Shown: positions 13,945 through 24,569, numbered from the stretch's first letter. The stretch: 64,000 nt of DNA from Natroniella sulfidigena (GCF_023223645.1 NZ_JALKBY010000003.1:124001-188000); one strand, 5' to 3'. A program made the numbers and translations. The notes: generated by a model from the sequence alone, not told the origin.

Positions 13945-14376
13945 TTATTTATCTTGAATTGCACAAGTTAGTGTCGCTTCAGTTACTACCTCATCATCTA
14001 CAAAGGCTTTAGCCTCTACTTTGCCTACTTTACCTCTTAATCTTACAATCTCAACTTCAATAATCAACTGATCGCCAGGTTGAACAGGTTTTCTAAATCT
14101 AACATTATCAATTCTACCAAAGTACGGAACCTTCTCTTCTGGTTTATCTACTGATTCTAATAGACCAACACCAGCAACTTGAGCCATTGCTTCTAAGATT
14201 AAAACCCCAGGCATGATTGGATGTCCTGGAAAATGACCATTAAAGAACTCTTCATTGGCTGTTACATTCTTAAGCCCAACTACTTTTTCTCCCTCAACAA
14301 CCTCCAAAATCCGATCAATCAATAAAAATGGATACCTATGTGGCAAAACTTCCTTGATTTCAGTAATATCTAACAT
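13945..14376 (-). CDS. fabZ: FabZ, 3-hydroxyacyl-ACP dehydratase
   Basis: 143 residues of the hotdog fold. HRYPFLLIDRI is at the N-terminus, and GHFPGHPIMPGVLILEAMAQ carries the catalytic His and, further on, the Glu of the active site. It dehydrates 3-hydroxyacyl-ACP, competing with LpxA and LpxD for the same hydroxyacyl pool. It overlaps the lpxC stop by 7 bases and has AGGAGG upstream. Confidence 0.95.
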   Translation of the reverse strand: MLDITEIKEVLPHRYPFLLIDRILEVVEGEKVVGLKNVTANEEFFNGHFPGHPIMPGVLILEAMAQVAGVGLLESVDKPEEKVPYFGRIDNVRFRKPVQPGDQLIIEVEIVRLRGKVGKVEAKAFVDDEVVTEATLTCAIQDK

Positions 14377-15215
14377 AATAACGCCTCCTCAGTAATTAAT
14401 CTTTTTATTCTTTTAGCTAACTTAAAATTTAACTTATGCCCAGAGCGAACAGCTATAATATGCCCTCTAAACTCTGGAGCCAACTTCATATCTCCTACAA
14501 TGTCCAAAATTTTATGCCTTGCAATCTCATTGCTAAAACGCAACTGATTGACAGGGCCATCATCAGCAATCAAGATAGCATTATCAAGACTGCCTCCTAG
14601 CGCCAACCCTGCTTGCTGCAATTTTTCGATTTCATCAGCAAAGCCAAAGGTTCGGGCTGAACTGATCTGCTTCTTAAATTCTTCTTCAGAAATAACAAGC
14701 TCAGCAAACTGATCGGTCAGTCCTTGATGCTTACTAACAAAGGTATAACTGACTTTAAATTGATCACAGGGTAATATAGTTAAATAATGCTTACCTTCAG
14801 TCACATATAAAGGCTGATCAAATTGATAAACAGTTACTTCTTCTTTTTGCTTCTCAATCCCAGCCTCTTGTAAGAGATTGTAGAATACTTTAGCACTCCC
14901 ATCAGTAATCGGAGGTTCATTAGCATCTATTTCAATTAATAGATTATCTATCCGAAGAGCATTCAACGCTGCTAAAAGATGCTCTACAGTATTGATCTGC
15001 CATTTAGCAGTCCCTAATGTAGTACATCGATTAGTCGAATATACATTTTCTACAGTCGCTTCTAACTCTGGCTGGTCTGGTAGATCAACTCTTTTAAATT
15101 TAATCCCCTGATTGACTGCTAAGGGCTTACAGGTAATTGTTACATCTTCACCAGTATGGAGCCCAACCCCTGTATAACTAAATTTCTTCTTAATTGTCCG
15201 CTGTTTCCTTACCAA
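14370..15215 (-). CDS. lpxC: LpxC, UDP-3-O-acyl-GlcNAc deacetylase
   Basis: 281 residues from a TTG start. LpxC makes the first committed lipid A step and binds Zn2+. Ligands are visible: His79 in TVEHLLAAL, His234 and Asp238 in ARHKILDIVGD, and the general His260 in SGHKLN. The open frame extends to 15353, but the upstream part has no family similarity and overlaps the ABC gene. TTG at 15215 follows AAAGGAGGAAGTAGG, and the resulting numbering fits the family. Downstream it overlaps fabZ. Confidence 0.94.
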   Translation of the reverse strand: MVRKQRTIKKKFSYTGVGLHTGEDVTITCKPLAVNQGIKFKRVDLPDQPELEATVENVYSTNRCTTLGTAKWQINTVEHLLAALNALRIDNLLIEIDANEPPITDGSAKVFYNLLQEAGIEKQKEEVTVYQFDQPLYVTEGKHYLTILPCDQFKVSYTFVSKHQGLTDQFAELVISEEEFKKQISSARTFGFADEIEKLQQAGLALGGSLDNAILIADDGPVNQLRFSNEIARHKILDIVGDMKLAPEFRGHIIAVRSGHKLNFKLAKRIKRLITEEALLC

Positions 15216-15285
15216 CCTACTTCCTCCTTTTAAACTCTTTACTAATTCAATAAAACTCGACATTTTCCTGCTTATTGACTTAACT

Positions 15286-16023
15286 TTAATAATATTCCAG
15301 TAAGTCTTTATACTTTTGGCCGACTTCAGATTGGGGGGCAACAAAGATCTCATCTGGGCTCCCTTGCTCTACAATCTGCCCTTGATCCATCAATAAGATC
15401 AAATCAGCAACCTGCAAAGCAAAGGAGACCTCATGAGTTACAATAATAATTGCTTTATCTTGTAAAGCAGTTAACTCTTCAATAACTTCTAATACTTCTC
15501 TTACCAAAATTGGATCTAAAGAAGCAGTTGGTTCATCTAGTAATAATAAACTAGGATCAATTATTAAGGCACGGGCAATACCTACTCGCTGCTTTTGTCC
15601 TCCACTCAACTGGTCAATAGCACTAGTAGCCTTATCTGCTAATTTTACTTTTTCTAAAATCTGTAATGCTTTCTGCTCTAATTCCTGCTGACAGGCTTTG
15701 GCTTCAGTCTTAACCACAGGTAAGATAATATTTTCTAGCACTGTCAATCGTTCGATTAAGTTAAACTTTTGAAAGACAAAACCGATCTCTTTTCTTAATG
15801 ATAATAACTTATCTTCAGAGAGATCTAAAACTGAAACTCCTTTAAAGATAATCTCTCCACCATCAGGCTCAGTCAAGCGATTAATACAACGAATAGTTGT
15901 CGATTTTCCACAGCCACTTGGCCCCATAATCGCAACAGTCTCTCCTTGCTTCACCTTAAAATCAACCCCAGTTAAGACTTGCGTTGAACCATAACTTTTG
16001 GTCAAATTACTGACTTGTAACAT
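15286..16023 (-). CDS. ABC transporter ATPase, polar amino acid type, in lipid A operon
   Basis: 245 residues. Walker A is GPSGCGKST (34-42), the signature LSGGQKQR (139-146), and the Walker B LLLLDEPTASLD. THEVSFALQVAD near the C-terminus is typical of GlnQ/HisP-type ATPases. The upstream ATG at 16035 is possible, but ATG at 16023 lies 5 bases after GGAGG. It begins 11 bases after the stop of the large membrane protein, its likely partner, and precedes lpxC. No substrate-binding protein gene is nearby. A role in envelope lipid or amino-acid-like substrate transport cannot be decided from sequence. Confidence 0.85.
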   Translation of the reverse strand: MLQVSNLTKSYGSTQVLTGVDFKVKQGETVAIMGPSGCGKSTTIRCINRLTEPDGGEIIFKGVSVLDLSEDKLLSLRKEIGFVFQKFNLIERLTVLENIILPVVKTEAKACQQELEQKALQILEKVKLADKATSAIDQLSGGQKQRVGIARALIIDPSLLLLDEPTASLDPILVREVLEVIEELTALQDKAIIIVTHEVSFALQVADLILLMDQGQIVEQGSPDEIFVAPQSEVGQKYKDLLEYY

Positions 16024-16034
16024 AGAATCCTCCA

Positions 16035-18428
16035 TTAAAAGTAGACCTTTCGTTTATTTAGTAATTTCAATAGACCAGGCTTGCTAGTAGGAATTATAAT
16101 TTCTTGCATGATTTGGGCATGATCAAAACCAAAGGCTTGACCTGCTCTAAATTCATTCTGTGAAATTTCATTCATCGCCTTAGCTTTCTTAGCTGCTATA
16201 ATTCCTAATATTCCTCCTACTAAAAAGCTGATATAGAATGGAATATATGGTATCTCGGCCCCAGTTAAATAAAAGGTAGTCCCTAATAAGCCAGCTCCGA
16301 TTAAACAGCCATAACAACTACCCAAATCGATCCACTGCTTTTTATTTTGATCTTTCTCAATCAATCTAATAGCATTAATCAATAAAGTTTGATCAAATAA
16401 TAAAGAAAACAAAGTAAAAATAATTGCAGTTAATGCCATCAATAATGTCTTAACCTCACTTAAGATCTGATAAATTTGTCCTCTCAGGTCAGGATTGATA
16501 ACCCCTATTTGTGAAGTATAAGATGATAACCCCGTTCCTAACTGCTGCTCAACTATAGCTTCAATTCCCTCTAGTTCAGCTTCTGCAGGTGTTAATAAGG
16601 AGATTTCTGCTCCAGGAATAACACTTCCTGCTAGATGCTGATCTATTAAATCAATACTATCAGTAATCTCTTCATCTCTTAGTTTTGGTAAAGCTTGCTG
16701 AATATATTCCAATTCTTCAACAATTGCTTCAAAATCCAATCTCTGCAAACTGATTATCTCTTCTTCTAATTCAGCTAAATCTAGTGCTAAAGACTGCTGA
16801 TGCATCTGATTTAATTCAGTAAAGAGATCGCCAGTTGTTAAATCACCTACCAACTCTTGAGCTCGCTTTTCATCTCCAGCTTCTAAGTTAGATAATACCT
16901 GATTAACCCGTGTAACATCTTCTTGCCAAGTAGTCACTTCAGTCAACAGTGGATTGTACTGGTCAATAACTTCTATAATTTCAGCTGTATTTTGATCAAT
17001 TCTGCTTTCTAGTTCAGCCAAATTAGCTATTAACTCTTCTAACTGCTGCCGATAAGGACTTGTCGGCTCTAAATTATTACTCTGTGCCCTCAATTCAGCT
17101 TGCGTTGTCGCCAAAAATTCTTGAAATTCAATAATTAAACTTTGAGCATAATTTAATCTATTAATTAAAGTAACTAAATTATCTAAATTATCTTCTAAGC
17201 TCTGTAAGGTACTCTGTAATTGTCCAAGCTCAAAATCACCTTGTCCAAATCTATCTAGCTGATTGGTCAAATAATTAATCTCTTCTAATGTTTCAGTCAA
17301 TCGCTCAAAAGCAGTAATAACCTCCATCAATTCAGTTAATAAATTATCAGTTCTAGCAAAAATCTGATCTAATTGGGGAACAAGTTTAGACATCTGTTCC
17401 ACAGCATAAGCTAAATCTTGGCGAGGATTACTAACTTGTAAGCTACCTGCTTTGGCCCCTAACTTGTCACCTTCTAGCTGATAAGCACTTCCCCCTAAAA
17501 TTTCAGCACTATCTCCTGAAGTTATAACTGCCCGGGCCAACTGACCATCCAGTTCAGTTACACGCAACATAACCTGCTCTTGATCTTGAGCGGGAACAGC
17601 AAGTTGTGCTCCTAGTTGTAGATCAACTTCGTCTGTCAGCTCAATTTCAACTGTAGTAGCATAACTATTTAAAAAGTTTTTCATCTCACTCATCGTCTTA
17701 ACTAAAGAGTCCAAGTCACTAAAATCTGTCTTAGTAATATTCTCAGCCTCAACTTGATACTCCTCATTAACTGCTCCTGCCAGTTGATCACCTAAAGCCA
17801 ATAGATCATCTGCTTGTTGATCAATTGGAAAACGAACTGTCAAGACCTGATACTCCGCCATTAAATCCTCAATATCTTCTTGTACATCCGGTAATAACTC
17901 AGCATCTGTAACAATAACTTCTAATTTATCGCCATCAATAAAGGTAAAATCAACCCCTGATAAAGCCTCAACTTGATCTTGTAAAAATTGACCACTATCT
18001 GCTTGTAAACCTTGCACTGTAATCCGCGGTTCGGTCATCAATGATAAATTATTATACCCAGGTACATTTTGAAAATACTCATTGACCTGAGTATAGGTTT
18101 CTTGATTTTGATACTCTTCATCCAACTTAATGAAAAAATTAGTTTGCCCAGCTAATTCAATTCCTGTAACCAATTTTGAACCAGCTAGTTTAGTATCAAT
18201 TATCTCCTGCGATTGTCTTTTAGCTTCTTCCTGTAAGTCTTTATCAACAATCAATGCCAAATCATATTCACCATAATCTCCAAGTAACTCATTGACCGTA
18301 TCTCCAAAATAAAAATCGGCTAAATTACCTACAACTAATGAAAGTAATGTGCTTGCAATAATTGTTACCACAAGTAAAATAATAATATCTCTTCCAAAAC
18401 CTGATTTCAGAAGAAGCATTTTTTTCAC
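16035..18428 (-). CDS. Large ABC-permease-like protein with periplasmic coiled coil, unknown function
   Basis: 797 residues, no family recognised. One membrane segment at about 11-33 is followed by some 600 residues of extracytoplasmic sequence. That part is rich in Leu/Glu/Gln heptads (coiled coil about 370-600). Three more membrane segments lie at about 660-682, 698-717 and 727-746. The C-terminal tail has RAGQAFG (761-767), then 12 residues, then a Pro, which is the spacing of the EAA coupling loop of ABC permeases. The adjacent ATPase gene supports a transporter. It is the first gene after the promoter of the lipid A run. YhgE/Pip-like proteins share the layout of TM, long coil and TMs, but not the EAA tail. 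Confidence 0.8.
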   Translation of the reverse strand: MKKMLLLKSGFGRDIIILLVVTIIASTLLSLVVGNLADFYFGDTVNELLGDYGEYDLALIVDKDLQEEAKRQSQEIIDTKLAGSKLVTGIELAGQTNFFIKLDEEYQNQETYTQVNEYFQNVPGYNNLSLMTEPRITVQGLQADSGQFLQDQVEALSGVDFTFIDGDKLEVIVTDAELLPDVQEDIEDLMAEYQVLTVRFPIDQQADDLLALGDQLAGAVNEEYQVEAENITKTDFSDLDSLVKTMSEMKNFLNSYATTVEIELTDEVDLQLGAQLAVPAQDQEQVMLRVTELDGQLARAVITSGDSAEILGGSAYQLEGDKLGAKAGSLQVSNPRQDLAYAVEQMSKLVPQLDQIFARTDNLLTELMEVITAFERLTETLEEINYLTNQLDRFGQGDFELGQLQSTLQSLEDNLDNLVTLINRLNYAQSLIIEFQEFLATTQAELRAQSNNLEPTSPYRQQLEELIANLAELESRIDQNTAEIIEVIDQYNPLLTEVTTWQEDVTRVNQVLSNLEAGDEKRAQELVGDLTTGDLFTELNQMHQQSLALDLAELEEEIISLQRLDFEAIVEELEYIQQALPKLRDEEITDSIDLIDQHLAGSVIPGAEISLLTPAEAELEGIEAIVEQQLGTGLSSYTSQIGVINPDLRGQIYQILSEVKTLLMALTAIIFTLFSLLFDQTLLINAIRLIEKDQNKKQWIDLGSCYGCLIGAGLLGTTFYLTGAEIPYIPFYISFLVGGILGIIAAKKAKAMNEISQNEFRAGQAFGFDHAQIMQEIIIPTSKPGLLKLLNKRKVYF

Positions 18429-18605: not shown

Positions 18606-19229
18606 TTAAAGCTCAAATTCTAATTTAACATCTCCTGTAGCATCAAAATCACCTGTTTCTAAATCTATTACAACCTTCTTAGCCTGTAACCATTGGTCAT
18701 CCTCTTTAATTTCAACATTTTCTGTAATAACAATCTCATCTTTATCAGCTTGAGACTCTAATCTTTCACCGGTAACCTCCTGTCCATCATAGATTACAAA
18801 CAAATCACCTGTAGCCAATAGATCATCAGTATCCGTCCAGATTTTGAGATAATCGGCTGTTAAATCTAATGGCTCTCCTCCTTTTTCGGTCTTAAGGCGT
18901 ACCTCTTCCTCAGCAATCAATAAATCCTCTTGTAATTGCAAGGTCAATTGTTGGCCCCAGATCTGGTCTCCAGCTGTTTGCTCAAGGTAAACATCTTCTG
19001 TAAAGAAAAGTTTTTCTGTCTTACGATTCATCTCCAATTGCTCAGCAGTTATCTCATCATCTTGATAAAGGAAGTAGACATCTCCTGTAGCTAGATAAAT
19101 CTCTTCTTCCTTTAGGTAACGGAGCTGTTTAGATGTTAATCTTCCTTGGTCTGCTAACTCTTCTTCTGCCTCGACAATAGGTGTAACTAGTAGTAATAAT
19201 AAGAAGATAATCAGTAACTTACTTCTCAT
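18606..19229 (-). CDS. lptA: Second LptA/OstA-like periplasmic protein
   Basis: About 207 residues with a signal peptide (MRSKLLIIFL to about VEA) and repeated OstA-type strands (YLATGDVYF, LLATGDLFV, DATGDVKLEF). LptA-like proteins bridge LPS between membranes. ATG at 19229 follows GAAGGGG and lies inside the end of the upstream LptC-like gene; the frame continues to 19253 without a better start. It is the last gene before a terminator. A second LptA/LptC pair lies at the left edge of the window, so the two sets may serve different sites or be partly redundant. Confidence 0.82.
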   Translation of the reverse strand: MRSKLLIIFLLLLLVTPIVEAEEELADQGRLTSKQLRYLKEEEIYLATGDVYFLYQDDEITAEQLEMNRKTEKLFFTEDVYLEQTAGDQIWGQQLTLQLQEDLLIAEEEVRLKTEKGGEPLDLTADYLKIWTDTDDLLATGDLFVIYDGQEVTGERLESQADKDEIVITENVEIKEDDQWLQAKKVVIDLETGDFDATGDVKLEFEL

Positions 19230-19785
19230 CACTGTCAGCCCCTTCAAAATCAAAAGTCATCTCTACTCCAATTGTAAAATCAATTACCTCTGCTGTCAAA
19301 TCAACTATCATTCCTCCAGCAGATAATTCTCCATCATCAAATAGATAGCTTACTGGACTATCAGTCCTAAACTTCTGCTCCTCTGCTAACCAATCTAGCT
19401 TCTCGGTCCTAATTTGTTGGCCCGTACTCTCTTTTAATTGCACATCCCCTCTTAACTGCAAATCTTTACTCTCTTGCTTATAAATCAAACGTTCCACATC
19501 TAAATTATATCTAACTTGCTCCCCTTCAAAAAACTTTCCATCTTTAACTCCCTGAGCAATTATTCTTTCTAATTGATCATCATCAGTAACTAGCGGTTCT
19601 ATAACTTCTTCTAACTGCAAATCCCATCTCCGTTCTTGCCCTAAATAACTGATAATCCTACTCTCTTTAATTTGATATTGATAATCGACCTGCTCTTCTT
19701 TCTCCTCTTCATCCTCTAAGAATACTACTACACTAAAACCTAAGATAACTATAATTACTAGTAGGTACAAACTAGTCCGTTTCAT
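19219..19785 (-). CDS. lptC: Second LptC-like protein
   Basis: 188 residues: one membrane anchor at about 5-22, then a charged linker and beta-rich sequence with QLRGDVQL and an LptC-like spacing. No strong motif exists for the family, so the call rests on size, topology and position between lptD and an lptA-like gene. ATG at 19785 follows AGGAGG by 8 bases. It overlaps lptD by 14 bases and the LptA-like gene by 11. Tight coupling with lptD suggests this set works directly with the outer-membrane translocon. Confidence 0.75.
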   Translation of the reverse strand: MKRTSLYLLVIIVILGFSVVVFLEDEEEKEEQVDYQYQIKESRIISYLGQERRWDLQLEEVIEPLVTDDDQLERIIAQGVKDGKFFEGEQVRYNLDVERLIYKQESKDLQLRGDVQLKESTGQQIRTEKLDWLAEEQKFRTDSPVSYLFDDGELSAGGMIVDLTAEVIDFTIGVEMTFDFEGADSDEK

Positions 19786-22054
19786 CAAGTAAACCTCCTA
19801 AATCTGTATCAAACAACATCCCTTCTTCTTCACTACTACCAAATTTGAGCTCTTGTTCAGAAAAAGCTGTGATCTGATATTGAAGCCAGATTTCTTGATC
19901 AATATGGTCATAAGATAAGGTTAACTTTCGGCAGTGAAGATCCCGCTCTATTGCTAAGTTAGCTGTAGTAAATCGATCACTAGGTCGGTCATAACTACTG
20001 TTTAACTTAATATTCCATTGGCCTGTCGTCCAATCTAAGCTATTATCCCATTTAATCATTTCTAAATCATTCAGATCCAAACGAACCCCTGTTTGATAAT
20101 TGAGATTCTCCTTTTCTACTTTAAAAGTAGTAGCAAATTGCTTAAATTCTCTGTGGTTTAAATCATAAGAGAGTACATTCTCTAATTGATACTCTTCGTT
20201 AAATTGATAGTTTAACCTCTGTTCTAGATCATCATACTCTCCGGTCAAAAAATCATATCCTGTCGTCAATTGAAATCTACTTCTACCTCTTCGCCACAGT
20301 AATCTTTCTTCTAACTTATGGCGATCATTGACTGTAGAGAAATCATCTGGAGCCATTCCTTGGACTGTCTGATAACGATGGCTAAGTCGATTAGACCAAT
20401 TATTACCCAAATCACTGAACAAAATCAAGTTACTATCATAAGACCAGTGAGCATAACCTTGATCATAGATATCCTGTCGAATGCCCTGCTGATAATTAAG
20501 ACGATTGGCAGGAGTTAATCTTAAATCATCTTGATAATTACCTTCCAAATAACCATGTTGCTTAGTATCTTCCCAATCAACTTGGTAGCGATTACTCCCT
20601 CCTAAGCCTAGTTCAAAGTTGGTTAAAGAATCAACTTCTAATAATCGGGCAGGGGCCAACGTCAAATCAAACTTGGGTAGATAGTAACTTTCAACCTCTT
20701 CAGTATCACCTTGTAGATCAGCTTTAAGAGTCCAATCATAAGCTCGTTGATCCTCAGTTAAGCGGATAGCAGTATCATAATCACCATACTCATGCTGCTT
20801 AGCAGTCTCATAATCAAGATCTAATTCATAATCAAGGAAGAGTTCATTTGTAAAATAAGTCCGATAATCAAGCCCTAAACCATAAGAGTTAAGGTGCTCC
20901 TCCCGTTCAGTATAACCATAATCAAGACCAATTGCTAAACGATCATCATAAAAGTCATCTCTCAACTTATCAAAATCTAAACCTAAATCAAGACGATGTT
21001 GATACCTTTGATCCTGTCTATAATCTGCTCTAACTTCGTTGGCCCAATTATCAAACTCAAGGGATTGATCAAAGTTAAGATCAAGCCAGGTGCCATGTTG
21101 CGGGTCAGTTAAATAATTAGAATAATGGTTTTGATAAGCTAAATTAAAGTTTCGCTCACCATCGTCTAACTTCATCTTCCGGTCAAGCTCTGTACTGACC
21201 CAGGGTCCATCATCTTGTTCACGTTTGTCATCTTCTAGATATAGATAAAGATAAGCCTGATCATCTTCTTGGGAGCGATAATAATGCTTGAACCCTCCAG
21301 CAAAACCCATTTCACTAAAATAATCGAGATATAACTGGCCAAAATCACCTTCTAATGCCGAAGCGGGCCAACTCTCATAATCAGAACCTAAGTAATAATT
21401 ATACGTAGTCTTAACAAACCACCCCCGCTGCCTACTATAACCAGCCTGCGGATAAAACCCAGGTTCTTGATCCCGCAAGGAGTAAACCATTACTGGCAAA
21501 TAAAACAACGGTAAATTACCACTCATCTCCCAAAAGACAACATGCTTAGCTACAATTCTATCACCAGGATAAACCACTAATTCGTTGGCCTTAAAATAAT
21601 AATGAGACTCCTCACGGTCACAGGTTGTAAAATGAGTATCATCCATTTCAATCTCTTCTGGATTATAATTAACTTCAGGACTTTCTAAGTGGATTGGCTC
21701 TTCAATATCAGAAGCAATAATTATTCCTTCCCCTTCAACCAAAACTCCCTGTCTAGTCTCTAAATCATGCTCTAAATACTCAGCACTAAATTGACCATCA
21801 CCTTCTATAACATTGACATTACCTGTAGCTATTAATTTATTTTCTGCTAAATCTATCTCCATTTCAGTAGCTTCAATCTCCATCTCATCAGTTACCAAAT
21901 AAGCAGAACCAATAGCTTTAATCATCTGTTCTTCTCGAAAATAAAGCACCTGATCAGCTTCAAGGTTGACCTTTTCTTCTGCTGCTAAGGCAGTTGGGGA
22001 GGCAAGTAAGATTATGATTAATACTAGATAAAGTTTATAACTAACTGCTTTGAT
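19772..22054 (-). CDS. lptD: LptD-like outer membrane LPS translocon, with unusual ATC start
   Basis: About 760 residues if started at ATC 22054. An OstA-like N-terminal domain (LIATGNVNV) precedes a long beta-barrel rich in Tyr, Asp and Leu strands. The family motif FTTCD ... HYYFKA ... PLFYLPVM is clear. LptD inserts LPS into the outer leaflet. The first canonical start in frame, GTG at 21949, would remove the signal peptide. From the ATC the frame reads a good signal peptide (KAVSYKLYLVLIII to about ALA), and AAAGGGG lies 8 bases upstream. No ATG, GTG or TTG lies between that site and the preceding in-frame TAG. No LptE gene was seen nearby. Confidence 0.88.
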   Translation of the reverse strand: MKAVSYKLYLVLIIILLASPTALAAEEKVNLEADQVLYFREEQMIKAIGSAYLVTDEMEIEATEMEIDLAENKLIATGNVNVIEGDGQFSAEYLEHDLETRQGVLVEGEGIIIASDIEEPIHLESPEVNYNPEEIEMDDTHFTTCDREESHYYFKANELVVYPGDRIVAKHVVFWEMSGNLPLFYLPVMVYSLRDQEPGFYPQAGYSRQRGWFVKTTYNYYLGSDYESWPASALEGDFGQLYLDYFSEMGFAGGFKHYYRSQEDDQAYLYLYLEDDKREQDDGPWVSTELDRKMKLDDGERNFNLAYQNHYSNYLTDPQHGTWLDLNFDQSLEFDNWANEVRADYRQDQRYQHRLDLGLDFDKLRDDFYDDRLAIGLDYGYTEREEHLNSYGLGLDYRTYFTNELFLDYELDLDYETAKQHEYGDYDTAIRLTEDQRAYDWTLKADLQGDTEEVESYYLPKFDLTLAPARLLEVDSLTNFELGLGGSNRYQVDWEDTKQHGYLEGNYQDDLRLTPANRLNYQQGIRQDIYDQGYAHWSYDSNLILFSDLGNNWSNRLSHRYQTVQGMAPDDFSTVNDRHKLEERLLWRRGRSRFQLTTGYDFLTGEYDDLEQRLNYQFNEEYQLENVLSYDLNHREFKQFATTFKVEKENLNYQTGVRLDLNDLEMIKWDNSLDWTTGQWNIKLNSSYDRPSDRFTTANLAIERDLHCRKLTLSYDHIDQEIWLQYQITAFSEQELKFGSSEEEGMLFDTDLGGLLDETD

Positions 22055-22078: not shown

Positions 22079-22392
22079 TAGTGATTAGTAACTGGTAACT
22101 AGTAATTAGTAAATTCAACCCCCTAGAAACATGCAATCAAAACCTTGTTAGACGCAGACTAAATTCGGATTGAAATCCGACTAACACAAGACAATTTCAA
22201 GATCATAAAATAAATTTTAATTGGTTTTAATCAGAATTTAGTTAGATCTTAGTCACCCCAAGAGTACTTCCTCAGAAAACAAAAAACGTTTTCTTAAGGG
22301 CGCTGTGTCAAAAGATTTTGACTTTGATTTTACCAATCACGAATCACTAATTACCAATTACTAAAGCGAAGCTTTATTGTAATTCAGCTAGA
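22079..22392. repeat. About 305-base mosaic element, copy 1 of a near-identical pair
   Basis: The left end carries TTAGTAA, CTGGTAA, CTAGTAA, TTAGTAA units, and the right end inverted units (ATCACTA, ATTACCA, ATTACTA) before AAGCTTTATTGTAAT. The core has ATTCGGATTGAAATCCGA and the block CCCCAAGAGTACTTCCTCAG. A hairpin AGAAAACAAAAAACGTTTTCT and GGGCGCTGTG follow. A copy with about 20 differences lies at 52390-52692. It fills the gap between lptG and lptD. Confidence 0.85.
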
Positions 22393-23466
22393 ATAATTCT
22401 CTTTAAATAACAGATACACCCCTACCCCACCTACCAATAAATTAGGAATCCAAACGGCTAAAAATGGTTCAATAACCCCATTCCCACCTAATGATCGAAA
22501 GATAGAGACCACAGCAAAGTAAATAAAGATAATAATAATACTAGCTATAATCCCAAACAGCCTGCCTTTTTCAGAACCAGCACTTAATGGAGCACCAATC
22601 AAGACAAAGACCAACGGTAAAATTGCCTCTGCTAATTTAAAATGATACTCTACTAATAATTGATTGGTATCAATCCCTGCATCTGTAAATAAATCGATCT
22701 GTTCTCGTAATTGTTTGCGATTCATCTCACCTGGTTCCCTATTATTATATTGATAAAACTGCCTAAAATCTCGACCAACTTCTACTTCTAACTTTCTAAA
22801 ACTTTCTTCCTTAACTAAATAACCATCAACATCCAGTTCACTAATTAATCCTTCCTCCAACAACCAACTATCTTCTGTAAAACTACCTTCTGTAGCAGTA
22901 ATTATTTGCTTCCCTGTTCCTTGTTGATAAATCATAACCCTTTCTAATTGCTGCTTTTGATCATCAACTTCTCCAGCATAAAAGTAGCGATCTTCTCCTC
23001 CTCTAAAAAGAAGATCGGTATAAACTCCTGGATCCTTATCTTGATAGACCTCTTCTTCTACTAACCGCTGATAATTAGCATTAGCTTGAGGCACAACCTC
23101 TTCATTCAGGCCATAAATTATAAAACTTGCTACTAGAGCTAGAGCTAATAATGGATAAACTAAACGAATAAAGCTGATTCCTCCTATCTGCAAAGCACTC
23201 AATTCATTATCCTTACCTAACCGACCTAAAGATAAGATAGTAGCTAACAAAACTGCTATCGCAATACTCTGCACCACAATAGGAGGTAGCCGATACAATA
23301 ACAACCTAATTACAATCGCAATTGGAACCTCTCGAATAATGATAAAATCAGTCAATTGAAATAAATAACCACTCAACATCACTATTACTAGTCCAACCAA
23401 GGAATAAAAAGAAGGTTTTAAAAATTCTAGTACTAGATACCGATCAACTATTTTTAGTCCTTTCAT
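22384..23466 (-). CDS. lptG: LptF/LptG-type LPS export permease
   Basis: 360 residues of the YjgP/YjgQ family. Membrane segments lie at about 14-34, 52-72 and 98-118, a periplasmic domain at about 125-270, and three more segments at 275-350. LptF and LptG form the transmembrane dimer that extracts LPS from the inner membrane, driven by LptB. It overlaps the upstream paralogue by four bases (ATGA) and has GGGGAGG upstream. Which copy is F and which G is not certain. Confidence 0.88.
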   Translation of the reverse strand: MKGLKIVDRYLVLEFLKPSFYSLVGLVIVMLSGYLFQLTDFIIIREVPIAIVIRLLLYRLPPIVVQSIAIAVLLATILSLGRLGKDNELSALQIGGISFIRLVYPLLALALVASFIIYGLNEEVVPQANANYQRLVEEEVYQDKDPGVYTDLLFRGGEDRYFYAGEVDDQKQQLERVMIYQQGTGKQIITATEGSFTEDSWLLEEGLISELDVDGYLVKEESFRKLEVEVGRDFRQFYQYNNREPGEMNRKQLREQIDLFTDAGIDTNQLLVEYHFKLAEAILPLVFVLIGAPLSAGSEKGRLFGIIASIIIIFIYFAVVSIFRSLGGNGVIEPFLAVWIPNLLVGGVGVYLLFKENYSS

Positions 23467-24569
23467 AAATCCTCCCCAATCGGAAAATATTCCTCTTTGA
23501 AAATTAAATAAATTGCTACTCCTGTAAAGATCAAATTAGGCAACCACGCTGCTAATAATGGCGTTATCATCTGATTTCTGCCTAACGAACGAAAAAAGGA
23601 TACTAATAAATAATATAAAAACATAATTATAATACTACTTATCACTCCAAAAGCCTTACCCTGCTTTGATTTCAAACTCAACGGTACCCCAAGTAGAACA
23701 AAGATTAAGGAAATAAAGACTTCAGCTAACTTCAGATGATAATCAACCAATAATGAACTGACGTCTAAACCACTTGATTGAAAGAGCTCGATCTCTTTTC
23801 TTAACTCCGCTCGACTCATTTCAGCAGTCGTTCGTTGTTGCCCATAAAATTCTCTGATTTCTTGATTTAGATTTATCTCCATCTCATCAAAATCAGATTG
23901 ATAAGTTAACTCTCCCTTATCATCTAATTTATGGATCATCCCTTCTTCTAAATGCCAGATTTCCCCCGCAAAATAACCTCGCTCTGCTCTTATTAGACGA
24001 GGAAATCCATCTTCTTCAATCTCATAAGCTATAATTTGTTCTAACCTTCCTTGCCGATTATCAATTTGTTGAATATAAAAGTATTTATCATCTCCTCCCT
24101 CAAAGAAGGTACCTTGTTGTAAGTTAGGAGGCCCTTCTTCTAGGATGGTCTGTCTGATAATATTTTGAGCCCGATGATTAGTCCACGGTACAACCTGTTG
24201 GCTGATTAAATAATTGCTCAAACTGATTATTATAGCGAGTAAGAATAAAGGAGCCAACAAACGCTGTAAACTAGCTCCCCCCATTCTCAAAGCAGTCAAT
24301 TCATTATTCTTAACCAATTGACTCATTGCAAGTAAAGTAGCAAATAAGACAGAAATGGCTAGACTCTCTATTAGAATATCGGGGATTTTATACAATAACA
24401 ATTCCAAAATTGTCAAAACCGGAATGCTTTTAACAATAATTAAATCGGTCAACTCAAATAAATAACTACTAATTAAAATCACTGTCAAAATAGAGAGCGA
24501 CAGTAAAAATGGTTTTAAAAATTCCGCTAACAAATATCTATCAACTATATGAGGTTTTAATTTCAACAC
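23463..24569 (-). CDS. lptF: LptF/LptG-type LPS export permease (paralogue)
   Basis: 368 residues, same layout as its neighbour: three N-terminal membrane segments, a periplasmic beta-rich domain, three C-terminal segments. The conserved start IVDRYLLAEFLKPF is shared with the other copy. The start is GTG at 24569 after AGAGGTG; TTG directly after it is an alternative. It ends in a four-base overlap with the next gene, as expected for subunits made in equal amounts. lptB, the ATPase, is not in the window. Confidence 0.88.
   Translation of the reverse strand: MLKLKPHIVDRYLLAEFLKPFLLSLSILTVILISSYLFELTDLIIVKSIPVLTILELLLYKIPDILIESLAISVLFATLLAMSQLVKNNELTALRMGGASLQRLLAPLFLLAIIISLSNYLISQQVVPWTNHRAQNIIRQTILEEGPPNLQQGTFFEGGDDKYFYIQQIDNRQGRLEQIIAYEIEEDGFPRLIRAERGYFAGEIWHLEEGMIHKLDDKGELTYQSDFDEMEINLNQEIREFYGQQRTTAEMSRAELRKEIELFQSSGLDVSSLLVDYHLKLAEVFISLIFVLLGVPLSLKSKQGKAFGVISSIIIMFLYYLLVSFFRSLGRNQMITPLLAAWLPNLIFTGVAIYLIFKEEYFPIGEDL

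Follow-up and report, generated by a model that had tools for sequence, protein, structure and literature searches.

An ABC ATPase and a permease-like protein ending in an importer-type coupling loop: a candidate outer-membrane machine of diderm Firmicutes

Two overlapping genes in the window (the whole 64,000-nucleotide stretch of Natroniella sulfidigena DNA analysed here) encode a permease-like protein of 797 residues and an ABC ATPase. With slightly better than even confidence, we read the two as a single ABC machine of diderm Firmicutes that serves the outer membrane or periplasm and not nutrient uptake. How the outer membrane is built in diderm Firmicutes, and what Lpt carries after lipid A loss, are open questions (PMC10665443, PMC11784454), and few gene units of the outer-membrane locus are as fixed as this pair. 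Its function, once known, could reveal an ATP-driven outer-membrane step that is missing from the E. coli model.

The gene pair and its locus

The permease-like gene (16035..18428, GTG start) overlaps the ATPase gene (15286..16035) by one base, both on the minus strand, as are all features within them. The 797-residue protein reaches the cut-off of no Pfam or NCBIfam family. The partner, of 249 residues, belongs to the ABC ATPase superfamily, with Walker A (GPSGCGKST, 15898..15924, invariant in 20 sequences), Q-loop, the LSGGQ signature (15595..15609), Walker B and H-loop all present and intact. Its best models are the polar-amino-acid types TcyN and GlnQ, with scores below those models' cut-offs, in keeping with the polar-amino-acid-type ATPase named for the adjoining gene in the initial annotation.

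Directly 3′ of the ATPase gene lies lpxC (14370..15353, minus strand), followed by fabZ, lpxA, lpxI, lpxB and an msbA-like gene. On the other side, an lptA-like gene with LptD_N/LptC domains (18606..19253, minus strand) lies directly 5′ of the permease gene, and beyond it lptC (19219-19788) and an lptD-like gene (19772-21949), both on the minus strand, and, farther 5′, two lptF/G-like genes (22384-24569). The lpx, fabZ, msbA and lptF/G names were assigned from sequence and conserved order. The pair thus has LPS transport genes on one side and lipid A synthesis genes on the other; of its original placement at the head of a lipid A run, the part that stands is that lpxC follows the ATPase. A promoter/terminator scan found no terminator-like site within the lptC-to-lpxA run, and promoter-like sites there were near background. 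By gene names, with domain scans covering part of the genes, no binding-protein gene is present in the Natroniella run and no shared binding-protein candidate in the homologous loci examined, in agreement with the initial annotation. Another contig of this genome (G000:C9:4993-8085) carries a LolC/E-like pair of its own next to an ATPase, and the 797-residue permease and its ATPase are therefore not its Lol system. At one homologous locus, up to four tandem LptA-like stretches lie 5′ of the permease (L014:4003-5373).

Conservation of the pair

A homologue search of 61 related genomes recovered the permease in 22 of 32 genera, mostly at full length, and full-length homologues occur in Halanaerobiia, Negativicutes and other diderm Firmicutes. 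In a species-genome profile scan, the best 80 of 95 candidate loci were examined; they are titled as Bacillota (Halanaerobiales, Sporomusaceae and other Negativicutes, and further lineages), apart from one from Lucifera butyrica (L067) that carries no phylum label. Among these best 80 of 95, all 79 usable loci have the ATPase immediately 3′ of the permease, at one of them (L117) detected by tblastn only; L051, whose contig ends just past the permease, was left out of the count. Homologues without an adjacent ATPase, which had been set beforehand as the finding that would speak against a pair, did not occur, and the profile search proposed at the outset, in Halanaerobiales and Negativicutes, returned homologues with the ATPase adjoining at the usable loci.

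The lpxC gene is present in 67 of the best 80 loci, and the order lpxC-fabZ-lpxA follows the ATPase in most of them. The 13 loci without lpxC comprise four contigs that end too early (L051, L104, L109 and L112), two with fabZ-lpxB in its place (L097 and L111) and seven free-standing pairs (L060, L063, L072, L082, L086, L094 and L115), one of which, L094, has an LpxB-like gene next to it on a short contig. The existence of free-standing copies indicates that the pair is the unit. These copies, from Sporomusaceae and one Selenomonadales MAG, form one clade in the permease tree; those of Pelosinus (L086:5155-9888 and its relatives L082 and L115) are followed by the same gene set, which includes radical SAM, flavin reductase and amidase genes.

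The permease tree, made by a quick method and containing long branches, separates a Halanaerobiales clade from a Negativicutes clade, both fully supported by SH-aLRT, which would fit old vertical inheritance. Permease distances correlate with those of the ATPase at rho 0.69, compared with 0.52 for LpxC. The permease gene of Natroniella acetigena (L010, L039) has one in-frame TGA near codon 299 beside an intact ATPase gene, representing either a broken gene or a sequencing error.

Membrane topology and the coupling loop

Four hydrophobic segments, centred at residues 24, 668, 713 and 740, were found in the permease, as expected from the earlier description of a 797-residue protein with one N-terminal and three C-terminal membrane segments. 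TM1 (residues 11-34; 18327..18398), called from hydropathy and charge across 105 homologues and modelled as a helix over residues 11-49, is predicted to start in the cytoplasm, while TM2-TM4 (residues 652-753; 16170..16475) appear from profile comparison and charge to correspond to the three helices that open the core of a type I importer permease. Across the 105 homologues the four segments obey the positive-inside rule, with K+R at 0.26 preceding TM1 and 0.03 following it, and at 0.20 in the TM2-TM3 interval and 0.06 in the TM3-TM4 interval. This charge pattern predicts a cytoplasmic C-terminus, and both termini are predicted to lie in the cytoplasm; a C-terminus outside it, named earlier as a finding that could overturn the idea, was not obtained.

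The extreme C-terminus carries a predicted EAA coupling loop (residues 759-791; 16056..16154), identified by profile match as E..AG.ALG.(12).P..KPGLL..LN. The ending reported at first, RAGQAFG-(12 residues)-Pro, is exact (R761-G767 and P780). The EAA residues are kept in nearly all of the 105 homologues, and the chain stops 6 residues past N791 of this segment, with a similar stop in nearly all homologues. The two importer core helices downstream of the loop are absent, and the protein has fewer than the at least five TM helices of a complete PF00528 core. The C-terminal 200 residues score 17.1 bits against PF00528, compared with a gathering cut-off of 26.4, and a weak PF00528 match appears in 11 of 24 family members (E up to 0.1).

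The permease family profile matched nine importer permeases from other genomes of the phylum at equivalent positions, all nine of them PF00528 proteins. As these nine had been picked by ORF size among the profile's own weak matches, the test was repeated with an unselected set, the 15 permeases of the Natroniella sulfidigena genome taken by PF00528 alone. In hhalign, the C-terminal 158 columns aligned with these 15 BPD permeases at Prob 94.7 and P 5.8e-8 over a region spanning TM2-TM4 and the EAA loop, compared with at most 1.1% for column-shuffled controls and 5.9% for an FtsX-family alignment. The FtsX domain (PF02687) is not among the listed Pfam matches of the 24 family members. These comparisons trace the EAA end to importer permeases (PF00528) and not to FtsX/MacB. 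Membership of the FtsX/MacB/Lol family by homology was rejected on the 5.9% FtsX value, although the topology agrees.

It is extremely improbable that the EAA resemblance arose by chance and that permease and ATPase are not coupled. The Pfam score is below the family cut-off in every single sequence shown, which would suit a chance likeness, but the profile-profile match to an unselected set with such low-scoring shuffles, the retention of the motif in nearly all 105 homologues, and an ATPase that always adjoins the permease where a locus has enough sequence (among the best 80 of 95 candidates) argue against a chance likeness.

Predicted structure of the periplasmic arm

An AlphaFold2 model of the permease as a single chain, built from 24 sequences, reached a mean pLDDT of 78.7 and a pTM of 0.45, and because of this low global confidence the shape of the arm is uncertain. 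In order, the model shows TM1; two alternating alpha/beta units at residues 57-199 (17832..18260), which look like tandem ferredoxin-like, or porter-like, periplasmic domains (pLDDT about 79-97); a small beta-domain at residues 259-333 (17430..17654); long helices at residues 335-513, then shorter ones as far as residue 599; ahead of TM2, a beta-alpha-beta element at residues 608-645 (16494..16607); TM2-TM4; and, over the EAA loop, a pair of short helices. Modelling residues 1-350 by themselves gave a consistent picture (pLDDT 83.3). The earlier proposal of some 600 residues of periplasmic coiled coil holds for the length and location; the models place alpha/beta structure at residues 57-333 and confine the helical portion to about residues 335-580.

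Foldseek returned only ferredoxin-like, ACT, KH and HMA folds for the N-terminal model, at low TM-scores, and recognised no lipid-binding fold in it. For the whole model the best match was MmpL5 (TM-score 0.09), the matches being dominated by coiled coil, and PDB sequence matches were essentially coiled coils and helical bundles. Weak profile matches at positions 330-600 (E 1e-3 to 1e-11) fall in the coiled-coil region only and were not counted. A fold identity for the periplasmic part was accordingly rejected, the matches being generic or driven by coiled coil, and no function was read from them.

The helical arm (residues 335-579; 16692..17426, from the model and length comparison) ranges from about 104 to 260 residues across homologues, and in most members its length is set by clade at about 138-144, 195-202 or 242-260 residues. 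The clade-specific differences fall at residues 397-409 and 436-531, and shorter forms mostly lack residues 436-494 or 436-531, as would be expected for a hairpin whose tip probably lies near residues 451-457. If this hairpin reading holds, each arm would have about 115 residues and, with 0.15 nm for each, measure about 17 nm, and a trans-envelope reach of the periplasmic part is plausible.

Distribution against outer-membrane, lipid A and Mla markers

In a tally of 398 genomes of the phylum, in which the permease was called at E <= about 1e-18 and weaker matches were excluded, 78 genomes have the permease, 102 Omp85, 85 LpxC and 26 MlaE. Omp85 is found in 77 of the 78 permease genomes compared with 25 of the 320 others; the sole permease genome without it has LpxC, and none of the 398 has the permease while lacking both. 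In this sample the family is confined to outer-membrane genomes. An ordinary polar-amino-acid-type small-molecule importer with an unusual permease would account for an ATPase nearest the TcyN/GlnQ models and for a loop of importer origin, but it would not be expected only in outer-membrane genomes and fixed among lpt/lpx genes, with two post-EAA core helices missing and no sign of a conserved binding-protein gene at the loci. This reading is very improbable, and the missing helices, the distribution and the unseen binding protein led us to reject it as the main one.

The link to LPS synthesis proposed at the outset fared less well. LpxC is missing from 14 of the 78 permease genomes, and LpxA and WaaA are missing from all 14; of three control genomes, all have LpxA and only that of Natroniella sulfidigena has WaaA, which makes WaaA the weaker marker. 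In the lipid-A-less loci L156-L159, which occupy two separate parts of the permease tree, lptF/G genes and lptD- or lptA-like sequences adjoin the pair, so that the pair has lpt neighbours in no fewer than two separate lineages without lpxC, lpxA and waaA. Lpt is known to be retained without LPS in Terrabacteria (2024 review, PMC11784454). Conversely, the permease is missing from 21 LpxC-bearing genomes, and LPS-bearing lineages without it include two genera (g10 and g15) and three families (f7, f40 and f70); the family is thus not needed for every LPS outer membrane. Together with the free-standing copies apart from lpx genes, the 14 genomes weaken an LPS-specific role, and since the pair outlives lipid A, its substrate is probably not lipid A itself.

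The same observations bear on the pair as a sensor that couples lipid A synthesis to transport by signalling the state of the periplasm or outer membrane to LpxC. That most loci (among the best 80 of 95 candidates) place the pair between lpt genes and lpxC would suit such a sensor, but retention in 14 genomes without LpxC, LpxA and WaaA, free-standing copies, and absence from 21 LpxC genomes make it improbable.

The 14 outer-membrane Firmicutes without LpxC, LpxA and WaaA belong to families f65, f72 and f81 (G119, G157, G190, G219, G291, G170, G135, G203 and others), and the loci read in these lineages keep lptF/G and lptD- or lptA-like genes, some with an LpxB-like gene. Three of them (L157:3302-6631, L158:4058-7159 and L159:9558-12842, from G203, G170 and G229, all without LpxC, LpxA and WaaA) contain a single ORF of 1034-1110 residues that combines an LptF/G permease with an LptD-like protein, the two parts being joined by a signal-peptide-like stretch.

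MlaE was not found in the Halanaerobiia sampled, including the Natroniella sulfidigena genome, and Mla has been reported absent from Halanaerobiales (Grasekamp et al. 2023, PMC10665443). Among LpxC-bearing genomes without the permease, all sampled f40 and f70 members have MlaE, and those from Halanaerobiia do not. Overall, of the outer-membrane genomes, 13 of the 25 that lack the permease have MlaE, as do 13 of the 78 that carry it (Fisher p 0.001, ignoring kinship). This split is suggestive of Mla replacement by the pair, though not an exclusive one.

Proposed function and mechanism

For the ABC machine that we favour, two permeases would sit on an ATPase dimer (2:2), each with its C-terminal EAA helices in a groove of the ATPase. 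Of the importer helices, the permease retains the three ahead of the EAA loop but not the two that follow, which would do away with the former import channel. ATP-driven helix movement could instead be passed to the periplasmic arm with its ferredoxin-like domains, beta-domain and helical hairpin, and the arm may extract or hand over a lipid, or drive an Lpt- or Omp-dependent assembly step, this last being the least certain step. As cargo we favour, with moderate confidence, something other than lipid A, either a lipid or some further component of the outer membrane; gene neighbourhood and distribution are what suggest lipid handling.

A lipid transporter proper, moving glycerophospholipid or another glycolipid between the membranes and taking the role of Mla where Mla is missing, is possible, and we hold it tentatively. 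It is consistent with the lack of MlaE in the Halanaerobiia sampled, the 13/25 versus 13/78 split and the retention of the pair beside lpt genes after lipid A loss, and the top whole-model Foldseek match, MmpL5, has a coiled-coil tube proposed as substrate conduit (PMC12501195). Against it, 13 genomes have both MlaE and the permease and some outer-membrane genomes have neither, the MlaE counts ignore phylogeny, and no lipid-binding fold was recognised.

Alternatively, ATP hydrolysis could move the arm as in FtsEX, to activate a periplasmic partner, be it a cell-wall enzyme or a step of Lpt/Omp assembly, with nothing transported. The arrangement of one plus three TM segments, TM1 being followed by a sizeable periplasmic domain as in FtsX, LolC and MacB, the loss of the importer helices past the EAA loop, the lack of a visible binding protein and the clade-set arm length would all fit; the absent sequence relation to FtsX (hhalign 5.9%), the lack of a visible conserved hydrolase gene in the main locus and the standing Lpt/Lpx neighbours make it rather unlikely.

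At somewhat less than even odds, the pair may represent a new structural class of ABC system, in which an importer-derived EAA loop ends a trans-periplasmic-arm protein, ancestral to diderm Firmicutes, that moves a non-LPS lipid or supplies power for an Lpt-linked step in outer-membrane assembly where Mla or lipid A is lacking. The pair also places the coupling loop of an importer at the terminus of another kind of membrane protein, a reuse that is relevant to the evolution of ABC systems, and it is testable, as pair-bearing Negativicutes such as Pelosinus and Sporomusa are in culture.

Comparison with known systems

Antunes et al. 2016 (PMC5007114) described the conserved locus and named three new outer-membrane candidates, the pair not among them. 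In the literature searched, the pair is not described as a system, in line with the initial annotation as far as the search reached, and gene clusters in Taib et al. 2020 and in another 2024 review of Terrabacteria may show the genes.

The last three helices and the EAA loop can be aligned in register with type I importer permeases (PF00528; HisM, PstC), and in/out parity and the kind of ATPase are shared as well; the Natroniella permease differs from them in having no post-EAA helices, an added TM1 with about 600 periplasmic residues and, by gene names, no binding-protein gene beside it. With the type VII systems FtsEX, MacB and LolCDE it shares the order TM1, periplasmic domain and TM2-4 with both termini inside, but it would couple by a C-terminal EAA loop and has no sequence match to FtsX. 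MlaFED of diderm Firmicutes is an ABC system with a proposed long periplasmic arm, likewise in outer-membrane Firmicutes (PMC10665443). Compared with MlaFED, the permease has no MCE or MlaE domain in a Pfam scan, and the distribution is largely different. RND pumps, with their 12 TM helices, are powered by proton flow. The model resembles MmpL5/RND in having porter-like alpha/beta domains together with a coiled-coil hairpin of comparable length, but four TM segments plus an ATPase replace two six-TM halves, and a TM-score of 0.09 makes this a loose likeness only. LptB2FG is likewise an ABC machine from the same gene run and drives lipid export to the outer membrane, but its permease is unrelated, LptF/G being separately encoded in the same loci. 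The ATPase and the coupling loop are thus each known, and it is their combination that is new among the families compared.
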